NCBI RefSeq assembly: GCF_030295405.1
Contig: NZ_AP027080.1
Location: 620,001-684,000, forward strand
Source: Mesoterricola silvestris
GTDB lineage: Bacteria > Acidobacteriota > Holophagae > Holophagales > Holophagaceae
Direction of reading: 5' to 3'
DNA: 64,000 nucleotides
Shown: piece by piece, positions 9,659-58,066 of the stretch
Position numbering within the stretch: position 1 is the first letter of the stretch
Layout: each line of letters starts with the position of its first letter
Notes under the pieces: model-generated
The model's input: the letters and a program-made list of their open reading frames with translations, nothing else
What the model was told of the DNA's origin: nothing
Database searches by the model: none
Translations under genes and position numbers: made by a program

Positions 9659-10891
9659 ATGATGAAGCGCATGGCGCCCCTGGCCCTCGCCCTGGCCACG
9701 ATCCCCGCAGCCGCCCAGGCCCCCACGGTGGGGGGACTGGTGCAGGTGTGGTACACGCAGATGATGGACAGCAACCTCCGGCTCAACGGCGTGGGCAACT
9801 ACTACAACCTCCGCAGCGAGTTCAAGGAGAACGGCTTCAACCTCCGGCGCACCGAGCTGAGCCTCAAGGGGCCCATCCTCCCCGGCGTGGAGTACCAGGT
9901 GATGATCGATCCCTCCATCAACACCACCTCCGCCAACGCCGCCAACAGCAACGGCTCCTACAACCCCACGGTCCTCCAGGACGTCTTCATCACCTACACC
10001 TTCATGGGCGCGCAGGTGAAGGTGGGCCAGTTCAAGACCCTCCAGACCTACGAGGGCAACGTCAGTTCCTCGGAGCTGCTGTTCGCGGAGCGCAGCCAGC
10101 TGGGCCGGGTCTTCGGGGACAAGCGGGACCGGGGCCTGGTGGTGGCCATGCCCTTCGGCGACCCCAAGGAATTCGGTGGCCGGGTCTCCCTGGGCGCCTT
10201 CAACGGCATGTCGGACCTGGCTTCGGGCAAGGCCGGCGATTCCAACGCCGCCAAGGACTTCGTCCTGCGCCTGGACTTCAACGTCGGTTCCGCCCACACC
10301 TTCGGCGCCTACACCCTGCAGGGGAGCACGGACCAGACCGACAAGGGCGCCCTCCTGGCCAAGACCTTCGCCGGCGCCAACGCCCCCACCGCCGCCCAGG
10401 TGCTCGACAACAAGGACAAGACCACCAACCTGGGCGCCTTCTACGTCTACAAGGCGGGCCCCCTGCACCTGTCCGCCGAGTACCTCACGGGCCTCCTGGG
10501 CCGCCGCGGCCCCTCCGTGGGCGCCCAGGCCGGCGCCGCGGGCCGCGAGCACCTGGACCAGAAGTTCACCGGCTACTACCTCACCGGCGCCTACAGCTTC
10601 GGCCCGCACACCGTCCTGGCCCGCTACGACCTGCTCAACTACAACAGCGGCGACCAGTGGTACGCCGCCGCCAGCCCCTACATCAACGCCGGCGTGGACC
10701 TCAGCCCCAAGTTCACCGAGACCACCCTGGGATACACCTACGCCTTCAGCCCCGCCAAGGTGAAGGCCGCGAACCTGAAACTGAACTACATCCTCCGCAG
10801 CAAGAACTTCCTCAAGCCCCTCGCCTCCGCGGGGCAGACCTCGGAGCAGGGCGGGGACACGGTGGTGCTGGCGTTCCAGGTGGCGTTCTAG
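9659..10891 (+). CDS. Outer-membrane porin (phosphate-selective porin O/P-like), paralogue 1
   Basis: This protein has 410 residues. The signal peptide MMKRMAPLALALATIP ends at AAAQA, followed by a beta-strand-rich barrel with alternating aromatic and polar residues and a terminal Phe (VVLAFQVAF), as expected for outer-membrane insertion by BAM. Motifs such as WYTQMMDSNLR, NGFNLRRTELSLKG, QVKVGQFKTLQTYEG and REHLDQKFTGYYLTGAYSF resemble O/P-type porins. GGAGAAG lies just before the ATG. The second copy at 13514-14794 shares WYTQMMD, REHLDQKF, YNSGD, TETTLGY and ILRSKNFL, so these are paralogues separated by ycaQ and rsmI. The solute specificity is unknown. Confidence 0.8.
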   Translation: MMKRMAPLALALATIPAAAQAPTVGGLVQVWYTQMMDSNLRLNGVGNYYNLRSEFKENGFNLRRTELSLKGPILPGVEYQVMIDPSINTTSANAANSNGSYNPTVLQDVFITYTFMGAQVKVGQFKTLQTYEGNVSSSELLFAERSQLGRVFGDKRDRGLVVAMPFGDPKEFGGRVSLGAFNGMSDLASGKAGDSNAAKDFVLRLDFNVGSAHTFGAYTLQGSTDQTDKGALLAKTFAGANAPTAAQVLDNKDKTTNLGAFYVYKAGPLHLSAEYLTGLLGRRGPSVGAQAGAAGREHLDQKFTGYYLTGAYSFGPHTVLARYDLLNYNSGDQWYAAASPYINAGVDLSPKFTETTLGYTYAFSPAKVKAANLKLNYILRSKNFLKPLASAGQTSEQGGDTVVLAFQVAF

Positions 10892-10968
10892 TTCAAGGTT
10901 CCGACCCATCCCAAGCGTCGCTCCAGAAGCCACAAGATAGCCAGGCCATGAAAACCACGGTGCGGCTC
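10892..10968. other. Short unremarkable spacer after porin 1
   Basis: This spacer lies between the porin stop and the hairpin repeat. I see no gene, no clear terminator with a T-run and no promoter here. The repeat that follows may act as the transcription end. Confidence 0.4.
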
Positions 10969-11144
10969 ATCTGCCGGGAACAGGCTGAGTTCGACGGCTG
11001 ATCCCCTTCATCCTGTTCATCCGATTTCATCCCTGTTCCAGCAGGGCCAGAGCCGGGATGGGTCGGCGAATGCGGGTCAACTGCGCGCCGACCCACCTCA
11101 ACACTGACCCTGCGGGAACGGGGATGAAATCGGATGAAGGGGAT
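10969..11144. repeat. Dispersed hairpin repeat, copy 1 (core orientation A)
   Basis: The left arm (11001-11047) reads ATCCCCTTCATCC...ATTTCATCCC...GCAGGGCCAG. The right arm (11104-11144) is its reverse complement, apart from a 9-base tandem TCCTGTTCA found only on the left. Homology with copy 2 at 27308-27492 starts upstream of the arm (GCCGGGAAC, GGCTG, TCGACG), so those flanks are in the same orientation. The 53-bp core (GATGGGTCGGCG ... CGCGCCGACCCACCTC) instead matches the reverse complement of the copy 2 core, with about 10 mismatches and no gaps. The element lies between the convergent porin and ycaQ genes. It has no coding sign and no transposase; it is REP/MITE-like in size. Confidence 0.85.
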
Positions 11145-11213
11145 GATCATTCCCCGAAGAGCCGCCAAATTGGACTTCCGCTTTTTTTATACGGGGTGGG
11201 TCGGAAGGTTGGG

Positions 11214-12389
11214 CTAGATGGCGCCCGGCCCGGTCCATTGCACGTCCCGGGCGCCGATGCGGGCGGCGAGGGTCTCGGCGGCTCGGGATACGGCGGCTTT
11301 GCGGGCCCGGGTGGCGCGGATGCCCTTTTCGAACCAGAGCCCCTTGATCTCCAGGACGCCCTTGTCCCGGTGGAACTTGGGATCCAGCCGGCCCACCAGG
11401 GCCTCGCCCTCCAGGATGGGCAGGACGTAGTAGCCGTACTGCCGCTTCGCCTCGGGGACGAAGGCCTCGAAACGGAAATCGAAATCGAAGAGGCGCAGGG
11501 CCCGGGCCCGGTCCCGGAGGATGGGGTCGAAGGGGCAGAGGAGGACGGTGCGGTCGGAGGGCTCGGCGAGGCGGGCCTTCCAGTCCTCCACGGCGAAGGC
11601 CGGGCGGCCGTCCTCGGTCTCCACGGGGCGGACGCGGCCGGCCTTGGCGGCGGCGGCGCACCACCGGGCGGCTTCGGCGGGTTCCAGGGCGTCGTAGTAG
11701 GCGGCCAGCTCCCGGGGGGTGGCCACCCCCAGGCGCTCCAGGGCGGTGGAGCAGGCCCACTCGCGATGCTTGGCCAGGGTGGTGGCGGGCAGGGCGTGGG
11801 CGGCGGGGAAGACCCGCTCGGGGAGGTCGTAGACCTTGTGGAAGTTCACCCGCCGGGCCACGGCCAGTTCGCCGGCGTGCCACAGGAATTCCAGGGCGGC
11901 CTTCTGGGGCTTCCAGCCCCACCAGGCGCTGGCGCCCTTGTCCTGCTTGTGCTCGAAATCGGCGCTGCGCAGGGGGCCCTCGGCGCGGATGCGCTCCAGC
12001 ACCAGGTCCAGGAGCTCATCCACCCTGTCCCCCACCCGCTCCCGCCACCAGGCGTTCTGGAGGATCCGCGCGCGGCTGCGGGGGAAGCGCACCTTCCAGT
12101 GGGGGTACCAGGCCAGGGGGATGGCCGAGGCGTCGTGGGTCCAGTGCTCGAAGAGGCGGCGTTCGCCCAGGAAGAGGGCGTCGAAATCCGCGGGGGCGTA
12201 GCCTTCCAGGCGGCTGCCCAGGATGAGGTGGTGGGCCCGCTCCACCACGTTGATGGAATCCATCTGCACGTAGCCCAGCTGCCGGATCAGGGTGTCCAGG
12301 TCCGCCGGGGGCGGGCCCAGGAGGCCCTGGGCCGCCAGGAGGAGGCGCCGGGCCTGGGCTTGGGTGACGGGTTCGGGTTTCCGGGGCAT
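11214..12389 (-). CDS. YcaQ-type winged-helix DNA glycosylase
   Basis: The protein (391 aa) belongs to the HTH_42/YcaQ family, whose E. coli member unhooks interstrand cross-links as a DNA glycosylase. Supporting stretches are LIRQLGYVQMDSINVVERAH near the N-terminus, LGSRLEGYAPADFDALF, LFEHWTHDASAIPLAWYPHW, and the C-terminal LLCPFDPILRDRARALRLFDF followed by YGYYVLPILEGEALVGRLDPK. These are the usual family blocks. The start chosen is ATG at 12389 (MPRKPEP); the open frame extends further upstream but runs into rsmI sequence. It diverges from rsmI with about 58 bp between starts. Confidence 0.85.
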   Translation of the reverse strand: MPRKPEPVTQAQARRLLLAAQGLLGPPPADLDTLIRQLGYVQMDSINVVERAHHLILGSRLEGYAPADFDALFLGERRLFEHWTHDASAIPLAWYPHWKVRFPRSRARILQNAWWRERVGDRVDELLDLVLERIRAEGPLRSADFEHKQDKGASAWWGWKPQKAALEFLWHAGELAVARRVNFHKVYDLPERVFPAAHALPATTLAKHREWACSTALERLGVATPRELAAYYDALEPAEAARWCAAAAKAGRVRPVETEDGRPAFAVEDWKARLAEPSDRTVLLCPFDPILRDRARALRLFDFDFRFEAFVPEAKRQYGYYVLPILEGEALVGRLDPKFHRDKGVLEIKGLWFEKGIRATRARKAAVSRAAETLAARIGARDVQWTGPGAI

Positions 12390-46527: not shown

Positions 46528-47099
46528 CTTCCTAATCATACGTGTCCCAGACCTTCGCCCCGGTTCGTCCTCGCCGGCTAAGCCGGCGAGGACGGGGATG
46601 ACAGAACGGACACAAAGTCGGTGCTCCGCCCATTCGCTTCGTTGAGCGGAGCGGAAGCCGGAACGGAAAGCCTCTCCTGGAGGTCCCTGGCGAGGAGCGG
46701 CTCCCACGTTTTCATGGATCCGCTTCGCGATAGACCTTTCGGCGCCGGTGGGCGCCGACGCTGCCTGGTGCGCACCTCCCCCAACCCATTGAAGCCATCC
46801 CGACCCCAGATCCGCTGACCCCGGTTTCAAGCGTTTGCCGCTTAACGCATTCAGCATTCGGCGCGAGCCAGCATCCTGGTCGAAACTCGCGAAGAGAGCC
46901 CCCCAGGTGGGTCGGGGCCAATGGGTGACAACACAGTCCCATGGATGAAAGGAGCGCTTTCCGTTGCTGCGGGCTTGGCCCGCAGCAACGACCCGGGCCG
47001 AACGTCGGGGACACGTGCGATTACCCAGCCGACCATTTTCTTGGCGACTTTTCCCTGGGGCCGACTAGAATTCCACAGGAATCAATCCCGGAGGCCTCC
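46528..47099. other. 572-bp gap without genes, with several hairpins
   Basis: I find no convincing gene here; the short frames that cross it lack ribosome sites and family-like sequence. Visible structure: a 14-bp perfect hairpin at 46566-46594 (CGTCCTCGCCGGCT A AGCCGGCGAGGACG), an imperfect one at 46623-46652, a palindrome GGTGCGCACC at 46767-46776, and a 13-bp perfect hairpin at 46962-46990 (CGTTGCTGCGGGC TTG GCCCGCAGCAACG). GGAGG near 47090 is the ribosome site of the next gene. The first hairpin may end the TIG gene; the second could be a leader structure. Confidence 0.6.
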
Positions 47100-54942: not shown

Positions 54943-55506
54943 ATGACCGCGGCACCCAAGGCCCCCAAGAAGGAAAAGGAAAAGCGCCAGACGCCCGAAG
55001 AGCGCCTGGAGGCCATGCGGTACAACCACATGATGTACGGCCCCACCGAGGGGGAGCTGAAGCTGGCCCCGAAGAAGATCGACTACGGCATCTCCTACAT
55101 CAAGCACCCCAAGTTCCAGAGCCTCCTCACCGCCTTCAAGCGGGGCGCCGAGTTCAAGTTCGACGTCACCGCCACCGGCAAGGTCTACACCATCGCCACC
55201 GACGGCTCCCACATCACCGTCAACGGCAAGGTCCTGTTCTACTCCCGGATGCTGAACCGGTACGAGAACAACCTCCTCCTCAACAAGGCCACGGCCATCC
55301 AGAACGCCACCTCGGACCCCCTGGTGCACCTGGTCTTCGCCGTCCTGCGCAGCTTCCCCGAACTCGCCGGCTACCAGGTGAACTACCTGAACAAGAAGTT
55401 CTGGAACGGCAGCGAGGTCCTCGACACGGGCCAGGTGGAGGAGGACGCCAACCTCCTCATCGGCTCCTTCAAGCACAACAACACCCTCGAAAAGCCCCGC
55501 AGGTAG
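54943..55506 (+). CDS. Hypothetical soluble protein (187 aa)
   Basis: The N-terminus is Lys-rich (KAPKKEKEKRQTPEERLEAM), then a likely globular part with repeated aromatic strands (IDYGISYIKHPKFQSLLTAF, FKFDVTATGKVYTIATDG) and a helix-rich end (LVHLVFAVLRSFPELAGYQV). No cysteine or catalytic motif stands out. It follows the small membrane protein by 11 bp. The stop at 55504-55506 lies 4 bp before the large 432-bp inverted repeat. I do not recognise it; a search of protein families would be the first check. Confidence 0.65.
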   Translation: MTAAPKAPKKEKEKRQTPEERLEAMRYNHMMYGPTEGELKLAPKKIDYGISYIKHPKFQSLLTAFKRGAEFKFDVTATGKVYTIATDGSHITVNGKVLFYSRMLNRYENNLLLNKATAIQNATSDPLVHLVFAVLRSFPELAGYQVNYLNKKFWNGSEVLDTGQVEEDANLLIGSFKHNNTLEKPRR

Positions 55507-55510
55507 ATTC

Positions 55511-55942
55511 GGGCGGGTTCCAGTTCGGCGCGCCGCGGGTTCGGTGACGCAGGCAAGCTGCGTCACCGGAGGGCTCACCGCTGCGAGTTGTGGTGGAGTG
55601 TTCGCACACTCCGGCTTCATTGGGGGGGTGGGCGGCGGGAGGAGCTCCTCTCTCCGGGAAGGCCTATCCATCGGGGGTACGCTGCGAGTGGTCCTGGCGG
55701 AGGGTGGATTCGCGCCGACGCTGACTGGTCAACGTCGGCGCGAATCCATCTTCAAGGCCCGCGACTCGCAGCGTGGCCCTGACGCGTAGGTCCATCCGGA
55801 GAGCCTCCGCCTCCGGTTCACCACCCCGCGCAGCGAAGCCGGAGTGTGCGAACACTCTTCCACAACCCGCAGCGGTGAGCTTTCCGGTGACGCAGCTTGC
55901 CTGCGTCACCGAACCTGCGGCGCGCCGAACGGGAACCCGGCC
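55511..55942. repeat. 432-bp perfectly symmetric inverted repeat filling a convergent intergenic gap
   Basis: The symmetry centre is 55726.5 along the whole length, with no insertion or deletion. The outer 108 bases (55511-55618) match the reverse complement of 55835-55942 with about 8 differences. A middle ~80 bases per side are diverged, and the inner ~40 bases pair again (CGCTGCGAGT and the perfect 14-bp stem at 55707-55720/55733-55746). Each arm contains two more hairpins: GGTGACGCAG-GCAAG-CTGCGTCACC at 55543-55567 and GGAGTGT-TCGC-ACACTCC at 55595-55612, mirrored at 55886-55910 and 55841-55858. It spans the gap between stops at 55506 and 55943. Mirror ORFs of 81 codons on both strands are a consequence of the symmetry. 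Confidence 0.92.
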
Positions 55943-58066
55943 CTAGATCCGGGCCAGGGTGCGGTAGGCTTCGAGGAAGTGGGTGGACTGGGGGAGGATT
56001 TCGTCCTCGAGGGCGGGGTGGTAGGCGACCCAGGTGTCTTGGGCGGCGAGGCGCTTGACGGGGGCGTCCAGTTCGAAGAAGAGGTCGTCGGCGATGCGGG
56101 CGGCGAGTTCGGCGCCGTAGCCCCACTGGAGGGTGTCCTCGTGGGCCACCAGGACGCGGCGGGTCTTCTTGACGGTGGCGACGATGGCGTCCCAGTCGTA
56201 GGGGTTCAGGGTGCGCAGGTCGAGGATCTCGACGCTGAGGCCCTCGGCCTCGGCCTGGCGCGCGGCCTGGACGGCTCGGTACACGGTGCTGCCGTAGGTG
56301 ATGACCGAGAGGTCGGTGCCTTCGCGGACGGTGCGGGCCTTGCCGAAGGGGATCATGAAATCGGGGCCGGGGTCGTTGCCCTTGTTGTGGGTCTGGCGGT
56401 AGAGGTGCTTGGGCTCCAGGAAGAGGACCGGGTCGTCGCAGCGCATGGCGGTGCGCAGGAGGCCCGCGGCGTCCAGGGCCCGGCTGGGGTAGACCACCCG
56501 CAGGCCGGGGATGTGGGTGAAGGAGCTCTCCCCGCACTGGCTGTGGTAGACGGAGCCGCCCATGAGGTAGCCGCCGATGGGCACCCGGATAACCACGGGG
56601 GCCTTGAAGTGGTTGTCGCTGCGCCAGCGGATCGTGGCCAGCTCGTCCCGGATCTGCTGCATGGCGGGCCAGATGTAGTCCATGAACTGGATCTCCACCA
56701 CGGGCTTGAAGCCCCGGGCGGCGAGGCCGATGGCGCGGCCCACGATGGTGGCCTCGGCCAGGGGGGAGTTGAAGACCCGGTTCTCGCCGAAGATGCGCTG
56801 CAGGCCGTGGGTGGCCTTGAAGACGCCGCCCTTGCCCTTGAGCTCGTCCAGGATCTCGGGGCGGCTGGCGTCGGCCACGTCCTCCCCGAAGGCCAGGATC
56901 AGCGGATTGGCCGCCATCTCCTGCTTCAGGGTGATGTTGATGAGATCGATCATGGTCTTCGCGCCGGTGCCCTGGTCCCCGGCGTGGGCCTCCCGGTCGA
57001 AGGCGGCCGACGTGGGATCCACCTCCTCGCTGTAGAGGTGCCGGGAGCCGGTGCCGCTCTCGGGGGGCGGCGCGTCCGCGGCCTCCTCCCAGGCCCGGTC
57101 CACTTCGGCGTCCACCTCGGCCTTGAGGGCCTCCAGCTCCCCGGGGGTGAGCAGGCCCTCCCGCAGGAGGCGGGCGGGATAGGTGGCCAGGGGGTCCCGC
57201 CGGGCCTCGTCTTCGCGCTGGGCGGGGGTCTTGTAGAGCTGCTCGTCGTCGGAAAGGGAGTGGGAGTAGGGGCGCACCACCCGCGCGCGCACCAGGGCGG
57301 GACCCTTGCGGGCCCGGGCATGGGCCACGGCCTCGCGCACGGCCTCGTAGCTGGCCACCGGGTCGCAGCCGTCGACGCCGTCGATCACCTTCAGGCCCTG
57401 GGCCTCCCAGCCCTTGAGGAGGGCGGCCACGTTGGCGCCGGGGTACTGGACCTCGGTGGGCACGGAGATGGCGTAGCCGTTGTCCTCGATGAGGTAGACC
57501 AGGGGGACCTGGAGGTTCACGGCGCTGTTCACGGATTCCCAGAACTCGCCCTCGGCCACGGTGCCGTCGCCGCTGGTGACGAGCACCACCTCGTCGGAGG
57601 TCATGCCCAGGCGCCCCTGGAGGCCTTCGCGCTCCGCGCGCAGGAGGGCCTCGGCCGCGCCCACCGCCTGGAGGAACTGGGTGCCGGTTGGACTCGAAGT
57701 GGTGAAAATATTGATCCTATGATCCGACCAGTGGCCCGGCATCATGCGGCCGCCGGTGGCGGGGTCCAGGCGCGATCCCACGGACCCCATGAACATGTCC
57801 CGGGCGGACACGCCCAGGGCGTAGGACAGGGCCCGGTCCCGGTAGTACAGGAAGAACCAGTCCTTGCCCGGCACGAGGCAGAGGGCGGCGGCGGCCTGGA
57901 GGGCCTCGTGGCCCGCGCCGTTGATCTGGAAGTACACCTTGTTCTGGCGCTTGCCCATGATCTCCCGGTCGTCGATGCGCCGGGAGGCGTAGATGGTGCG
58001 GAAGAGGCCGACCCTCTGTTCGCGGGTAAGACTGGTAATGTCGGGGACCGTCTCGGTTTTCGCCAC
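55943..58066 (-). CDS. Fused 2-oxoacid dehydrogenase E1 (alpha and beta in one chain)
   Basis: The 707-residue protein joins E1-alpha and E1-beta of a branched-chain 2-oxoacid or related dehydrogenase. The alpha half has the thiamine diphosphate site [20 protein letters not shown] with [13 protein letters not shown] (about 163-205). After a linker near 330-370 ([20 protein letters not shown]) the beta half begins ([20 protein letters not shown]) with [12 protein letters not shown] and [20 protein letters not shown]. The start is GTG at 58066 with AGAGGAG 6 bases upstream. No E2 or E3 gene is adjacent. The fusion is known in several phyla; the substrate is likely branched-chain, by family. An inverted repeat operator lies upstream. 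Confidence 0.9.

Follow-up and report, generated by a model that had tools for sequence, protein, structure and literature searches.

The 432-bp gap between two convergent genes, at positions 55511-55942 of the window (the whole 64-kb stretch of DNA that was analysed), is a palindrome. We conclude, with a probability of about 0.82, that it is a copy of a MITE-like, non-autonomous transposon, which is built as a long palindrome and uses CTAG as its target. Palindromes of about 0.4-0.5 kb are normally held to be unstable. The family described here explains about 100 copies of such palindromes in one bacterial chromosome.

The symmetry reported in the preliminary description, where every position x pairs with 111453-x without a gap, holds for the whole segment. 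More precisely, 165 of the 216 pairs are Watson-Crick around the centre 55726.5. This centre has no match in the window; the runner-up shows 102 pairs, and the mean is 61.9 (sd 9.6). The banded conservation was also recovered, with 8 mismatches in 108 pairs for the outer band (55511-55618), 38 in 80 for the middle one (55619-55698), and 5 in 28 next to the centre (55699-55726). The edges are those first described. The palindrome begins 4 bp past the TAG of the left gene (55504-55506) and ends flush with the CTA of the right gene, which starts at 55943. Nested hairpins are seen in both arms. Folded as RNA, both strands of 55507-55942 give very strong structures (plus strand, -387.7 kcal/mol, z -28.7; minus strand, -357.7 kcal/mol, z -22.9). 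The features in the window are the following:

54943-55506 (+): left neighbour gene, 187 aa, convergent
55503-55510 (+): left flank GTAGATTC, which holds the TAG stop of the left gene (55504-55506); candidate target-site copy
55511-55726 (+): left arm, a unit of about 214 nt read from the outer end to the centre; match to covariance model R1 at 55511-55630, 96.0 bits
55542-55568 (+): apical hairpin (helix 1) of the left arm, CGGTGACGCAG-GCAAG-CTGCGTCACCG; the best-conserved part of the family
55597-55614 (+): second hairpin (helix 2) of the left arm, GGAGTGTTCGCACACTCC or one base to either side; G-T pairs in many copies
55700-55753 (no strand): central inverted repeat, where the inner arm ends meet (CGCGCCGACG, then C or T, then TGA)
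55727-55942 (-): right arm, the inverted unit of about 214 nt, with zero spacer to the left arm; R1 match at 55823-55942, 99.4 bits
55885-55911 (-): apical hairpin (helix 1) of the right arm
55943-55950 (+): right flank CTAGATCC, which holds the stop (CTA) of the right gene; candidate target-site copy
55943-58066 (-): right neighbour gene, 707 aa, convergent; by eye, its sequence resembles a fused dehydrogenase E1 alpha/beta
46538-47018 (no strand): second family copy, with arms at 46538-46652 (+) and 46902-47018 (-)

The two flanks of the palindrome agree at 6 of 8 bases and take in both stop codons, which is what a single CTAG site that had served both genes would leave. Mirror-image open frames of 81 codons are present at 55544-55789 (+) and 55664-55909 (-). 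They are a product of the palindrome's symmetry and were not taken as genes.

Searching the genome and its relatives for the arm, as first proposed, revealed that the window palindrome is a member of a family whose copies are dispersed. Blastn against the Mesoterricola silvestris genome (one contig, 4,994,678 bp) gave at least 120 matches, in at least about 40 places when the best 40 of 98 candidates were scored. The unit of the family is the arm of about 214 nt. Its loci consist of two facing arms separated by 0-85 nt, or of one arm with a diverged partner. The R1 model was built on the outer 117 positions of the arm. All 150 candidates scored with it in the same genome pass, so the arms number at least 150. 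When parsed, 149 of these matches correspond to at least 97 loci, 52 of which are joined pairs of 342-514 bp. A second search of the fetched loci with the model recovered 167 arms, a lower bound. Likewise, a 20-mer pattern of the ends has 133 matches in this genome against 9 for its reversed control; in five congeners, its counts are no higher than the control. The R1 model counts 9, 8, 3, 0, and 0 arms in five congeneric genomes. Rfam covariance models gave no match above the gathering score, only sub-threshold chance matches.

Copies are about 65-75% identical to one another, so the family is either old or fast evolving. Gene prediction places no gene inside nearly all of them. By eye, 18 of the 22 loci with two well-matched arms have GTTGA as the inner end on one side and GCTGA or an equivalent on the other. 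This suggests that the two arms are inherited together. With these inner ends (the L026-L058 pairs), a T-G pair arises in the central hairpin on one strand, and the other strand has a C-A mismatch there. Very short versions, reduced to the ends or to the ends plus one apical hairpin, were seen at four loci (L211 ~1434-1475, L060 2513-2654, L101 8454-8549, and L107 2701-2810). They are probably internal deletions of the palindrome.

The preliminary description had named orthologous gaps in relatives that lack the symmetry as an observation against its reading. Such gaps were found at sister loci. The closest complete congener, whose matching stretches at orthologous loci are mostly 84-92% identical, lacks the element at the places of six sister copies. 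There, the gaps measure 7, 32, 36, 47, 87, and 126 bp; the place orthologous to the second copy of the window (46538-47018) has only 32 bp. These empty places indicate a gain in the lineage of M. silvestris and not an artefact. At single loci, the event may instead be a loss in the relative. One locus, L035, reads CCTAG-element-CTACCGATGGC in M. silvestris and CCTAGCGTGGC in the relative. Here, CTAG is duplicated around the insert, with one later base change. The window copy has no clean empty site in the two congeners compared there; G004 carries a different gene, and in G005 the site falls on an assembly gap (NN).

Gene positions for the placement of the family came from a simple finder based on codon usage. 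Of 96 elements, 58 lie between convergent genes and 4 between divergent ones. Among the outer ends that face the 3' end of a gene, 123 of 131 lie at -3 to +38 bp, counted from the end of the stop codon. Another 36 outer ends face a gene start, and all of them are at least 52 bp away. Of the 127 genes with a stop codon adjoining an arm, 89 use TAG (95 of 275 elsewhere, p=3e-11), and in 59 the stop forms part of a CTAG (47 of 275 elsewhere, p=2e-9). TAG is a common stop in this high-GC genome, with about a third of the background stops.

CTAG lies no more than 44 nt outside 71 of the 167 arms, where 1.6 would be expected. There is a spike of 20 arms with CTAG exactly 22 nt ahead of the first model base, and the best-preserved ends at this spike read CTAG-GAGCCYGGCTACGTAATC. 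CTAG is rare. The window holds 14 sites, of which 7 are stop codons and 2 are inside genes. This concentration in stop codons means that a CTAG target alone steers insertions to the stops. Spans from CTAG to CTAG show matching inverted ends in 8 of 334 pairs; seven other palindromic 4-mers gave 0-9 of 4,900-75,700. Of the palindromic tetranucleotides, CTAG alone flanks inverted ends much more often than chance predicts. For the 66 arm pairs, CTAG is found on both sides in 10, on one side in 33, and on neither in 23. With CTAG on both sides in just 10 pairs, the duplication is either not a universal feature of the insertions or has since decayed. The window also holds a CTAG-flanked element of a different family, likewise between convergent genes (10888-11217). 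It reads CTAG-TTCAAGGTTCCGACCCATCCC...GGGGTGGGTCGGAAGGTTGGG-CTAG, and it contains a nested inverted repeat of 61 nt that is 84% complementary.

Taken as a transposon, the element would consist of two inverted arms of about 214 nt, each with hairpins of its own. Insertion at CTAG, with duplication of the site, would be the work of a transposase supplied in trans. Where one CTAG is common to two facing genes, the insertion would leave both of them with a separate copy of the stop. In that case, the element fills the gap exactly and leaves both genes unbroken.

The transposase would most likely belong to a CTAG-targeting IS family, of the IS5 or the IS701 type. This assignment is inferred; the only sequence found to share the ends of the family is another palindromic element. 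This other element is young, about 270 bp long, and has CTAG on both sides; its ends, GAGCCTGTCTACGTAATA, are nearly matched by the best-preserved ends of the family. Nearly identical copies of it occur in two species of the genus (L208 962-1236; G004 211718-211991, 744171-744444, 1595900-1596173, 3215142-3215415, and 4453937-4454210). In M. silvestris, the young element abuts an IS5-type IS that is itself flanked by CTAG. The IS5-type IS has two copies in this genome, both with CTAG flanks and with different ends (GGGCTGTCGGCAAAC).

No IS701-type (DDE_5) transposase was found in the M. silvestris genome. The congener G004 has intact IS701-type copies flanked by CTAG. It also has a family member, CTAG-TTCGACTGTGGCGTC...GACGCCACAGTCGAA-CTAG, whose arms enclose a degraded transposase of the IS701 type (DDE_5). 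In the same genome, one copy of the young element lies exactly between two IS701-type copies, with CTAG joining all of them. No autonomous copy was found in which the family's arms occur with an intact transposase, and a search of lone arms for distant partner ends returned no element with an intact transposase. One candidate for an autonomous parent in G004, defined by its outermost matching ends at a distance of 2,140 bp, was rejected because it is the young palindromic element with another IS nested inside. By its ends and its encoded protein, inspected by eye, the nested IS appears to be IS630-like.

The hairpins of the arms show a strong pattern of compensatory change. In an alignment of 150 arms fitted to the model, 98.1% of the helix 1 cells are paired, and 10 of the 11 pairs of this helix have changed on both sides. 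An independent alignment of 71 arms gave 96.3% and 7 of 11. Helices 1 and 2 jointly pair in 89.2% of cells in the model-fitted alignment, against 27-51% when the partner is slid. Within helix 1, G-T pairs do not outnumber A-C (6 G-T and 10 A-C among about 1650 cells). At 10 of 33 loci, the arms differ from each other, yet both hairpins are perfect. This is the pattern expected from template switching inside a hairpin (PMC8794818). Given the near absence of G-T intermediates and the perfect hairpins in differing arms, template-switch correction explains helix 1 as well as selection does. The Watson-Crick perfection of the apical hairpin through double changes fits both, and it can be accounted for without selection on RNA. 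The preliminary description had read the banding as a sign of selected hairpins. The compensatory change in the apical hairpin agrees with that; the scarcity of G-T intermediates leaves template switching equally good. For the transposon, we suggest that the perfect hairpins would be kept mainly by replication template switching inside the hairpin and not by functional selection.

Helix 2 behaves differently, with 85 G-T against 12 A-C in gene-sense orientation. This strand-specific, RNA-like signature fits an RNA role. Nevertheless, it may rest on few ancestral changes common to many copies. At unpaired columns, the arms of a locus are 72.7% alike, against 65.0% between loci (0 of 2000 permutations). 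Gene conversion between arms had been suggested before; the greater likeness within loci fits either some arm-to-arm homogenisation or shared descent of each pair.

The main alternative is a functional element of gene 3' ends. The arm would be a structured RNA that ends transcription or protects the mRNA, and the pair would serve two convergent genes, maybe domesticated after transposition. The placement of 123 of 131 ends at -3 to +38 bp of the stop, with 58 of 96 elements between convergent and 4 of 96 between divergent genes, agrees with it. So do the RNA fold, which is very strong at -387.7 kcal/mol (z -28.7), and the pairing kept in helix 2, with its 85 G-T against 12 A-C in gene-sense orientation. 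At locus L119, moreover, the relative shows by eye a hairpin with a T-rich tail in the element's place. However, the concentration of CTAG at stops already explains the position, the relative lacks the element at the same gene pairs, and 36 arms face a gene start. Helix 1 lacks the G-T excess, and that of helix 2 may stem from few ancestral changes. The region has no T-tract terminator either; a search of 55400-56050 for an intrinsic terminator (GC-rich hairpin plus T tract) found 0. We regard this explanation as unlikely. A combination of both is similarly doubtful. It supposes that a CTAG-targeting palindromic family colonised stop codons and supplied bidirectional 3'-end hairpins that now work as transcript ends (domesticated terminators). 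For the transposon itself, a secondary role as a bidirectional 3'-end hairpin would be plausible from its structure and place.

A REP/BIME-type repeat mobilised by a RAYT (Y1 transposase) is a very improbable identity for the family. In its favour, the palindromes are dispersed, intergenic and close to gene 3' ends, and they come in inverted pairs. Nevertheless, a Y1_Tnp (PF01797) search of the M. silvestris genome gave no match, and the units have 214 nt instead of 20-40 nt. Duplication of CTAG, moreover, is characteristic of DDE transposases and not of Y1 enzymes. The weakest explanation, a local inverted duplication (a recent birth of this kind had been proposed) or an assembly artefact at one gap, would account for the near-perfect outer 108 bases, but it is excluded by the dispersal of the same two-arm structure at about 97 loci with 25-35% divergence, and the structure is present in congeneric genomes too.

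The CTAG-targeting transposon implies a simple placement rule. A target concentrated at stop codons results in harmless insertion and in hairpins at gene ends. About 167 related hairpin arms in one genome are a good set for separating selection from template-switch repair of stems.

We compared the family with known systems; a literature search on Holophaga repeats or on MITEs between convergent genes found nothing relevant. REP, BIME, and REPIN sequences are also palindromic, intergenic, and located mainly at gene 3' ends. The family differs from them in its size, the absence of RAYT, and the target duplication. PATEs of Haloquadratum derive from IS605-type elements and have neither terminal inverted repeats nor target duplication (PMC3119063). 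The two share the lack of a transposase, a high copy number, palindromes near the ends, and heterogeneous copies. Nevertheless, the inverted ends and CTAG flanks of the family fall outside the definition of PATEs.

The target duplication of IS5 has been reported as CTAG (PMC10379815). The two CTAG-flanked IS5-type copies in M. silvestris, one of them abutting the young palindromic element, resemble the family in this respect. However, their ends are GGGCTGTCGGCAAAC, and no intact IS with the family's ends was found. Members of IS701 make duplications of 4-5 bp (PMC8024623). The CTAG-flanked intact copies in G004 and the degraded DDE_5 gene between family arms there are points of likeness with this family of IS. 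In contrast, M. silvestris has none, and the ends differ from those of most copies.

Membership in MITEs, as a broad class, is supported by four of the five features tested. The copies are short and without a transposase gene of their own (342-514 bp in joined pairs). They have terminal inverted repeats, as two inverted arms with conserved ends (GAGCCYGGCTACGTAATCGYACGTGTCCCGGAC). Target-site duplication is seen in the empty site of L035 and in the CTAG flank counts. Finally, about 97 dispersed loci and six short orthologous gaps represent many copies with empty sites in relatives. The fifth feature concerns ends in common with an autonomous transposon of a known IS family; here, the likeness of the ends is to another palindromic element, a degraded IS701-type gene lies inside one G004 member, and the IS5-type IS has other ends. 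As with MITEs, an IS with the same target is present in the genome. However, the inverted repeats of this family make up nearly the whole element (~400-510 bp), and each arm has its own covarying hairpins. Its copies are also diverged, with about 65-75% identity, and its position at stop codons is a consequence of the CTAG target.
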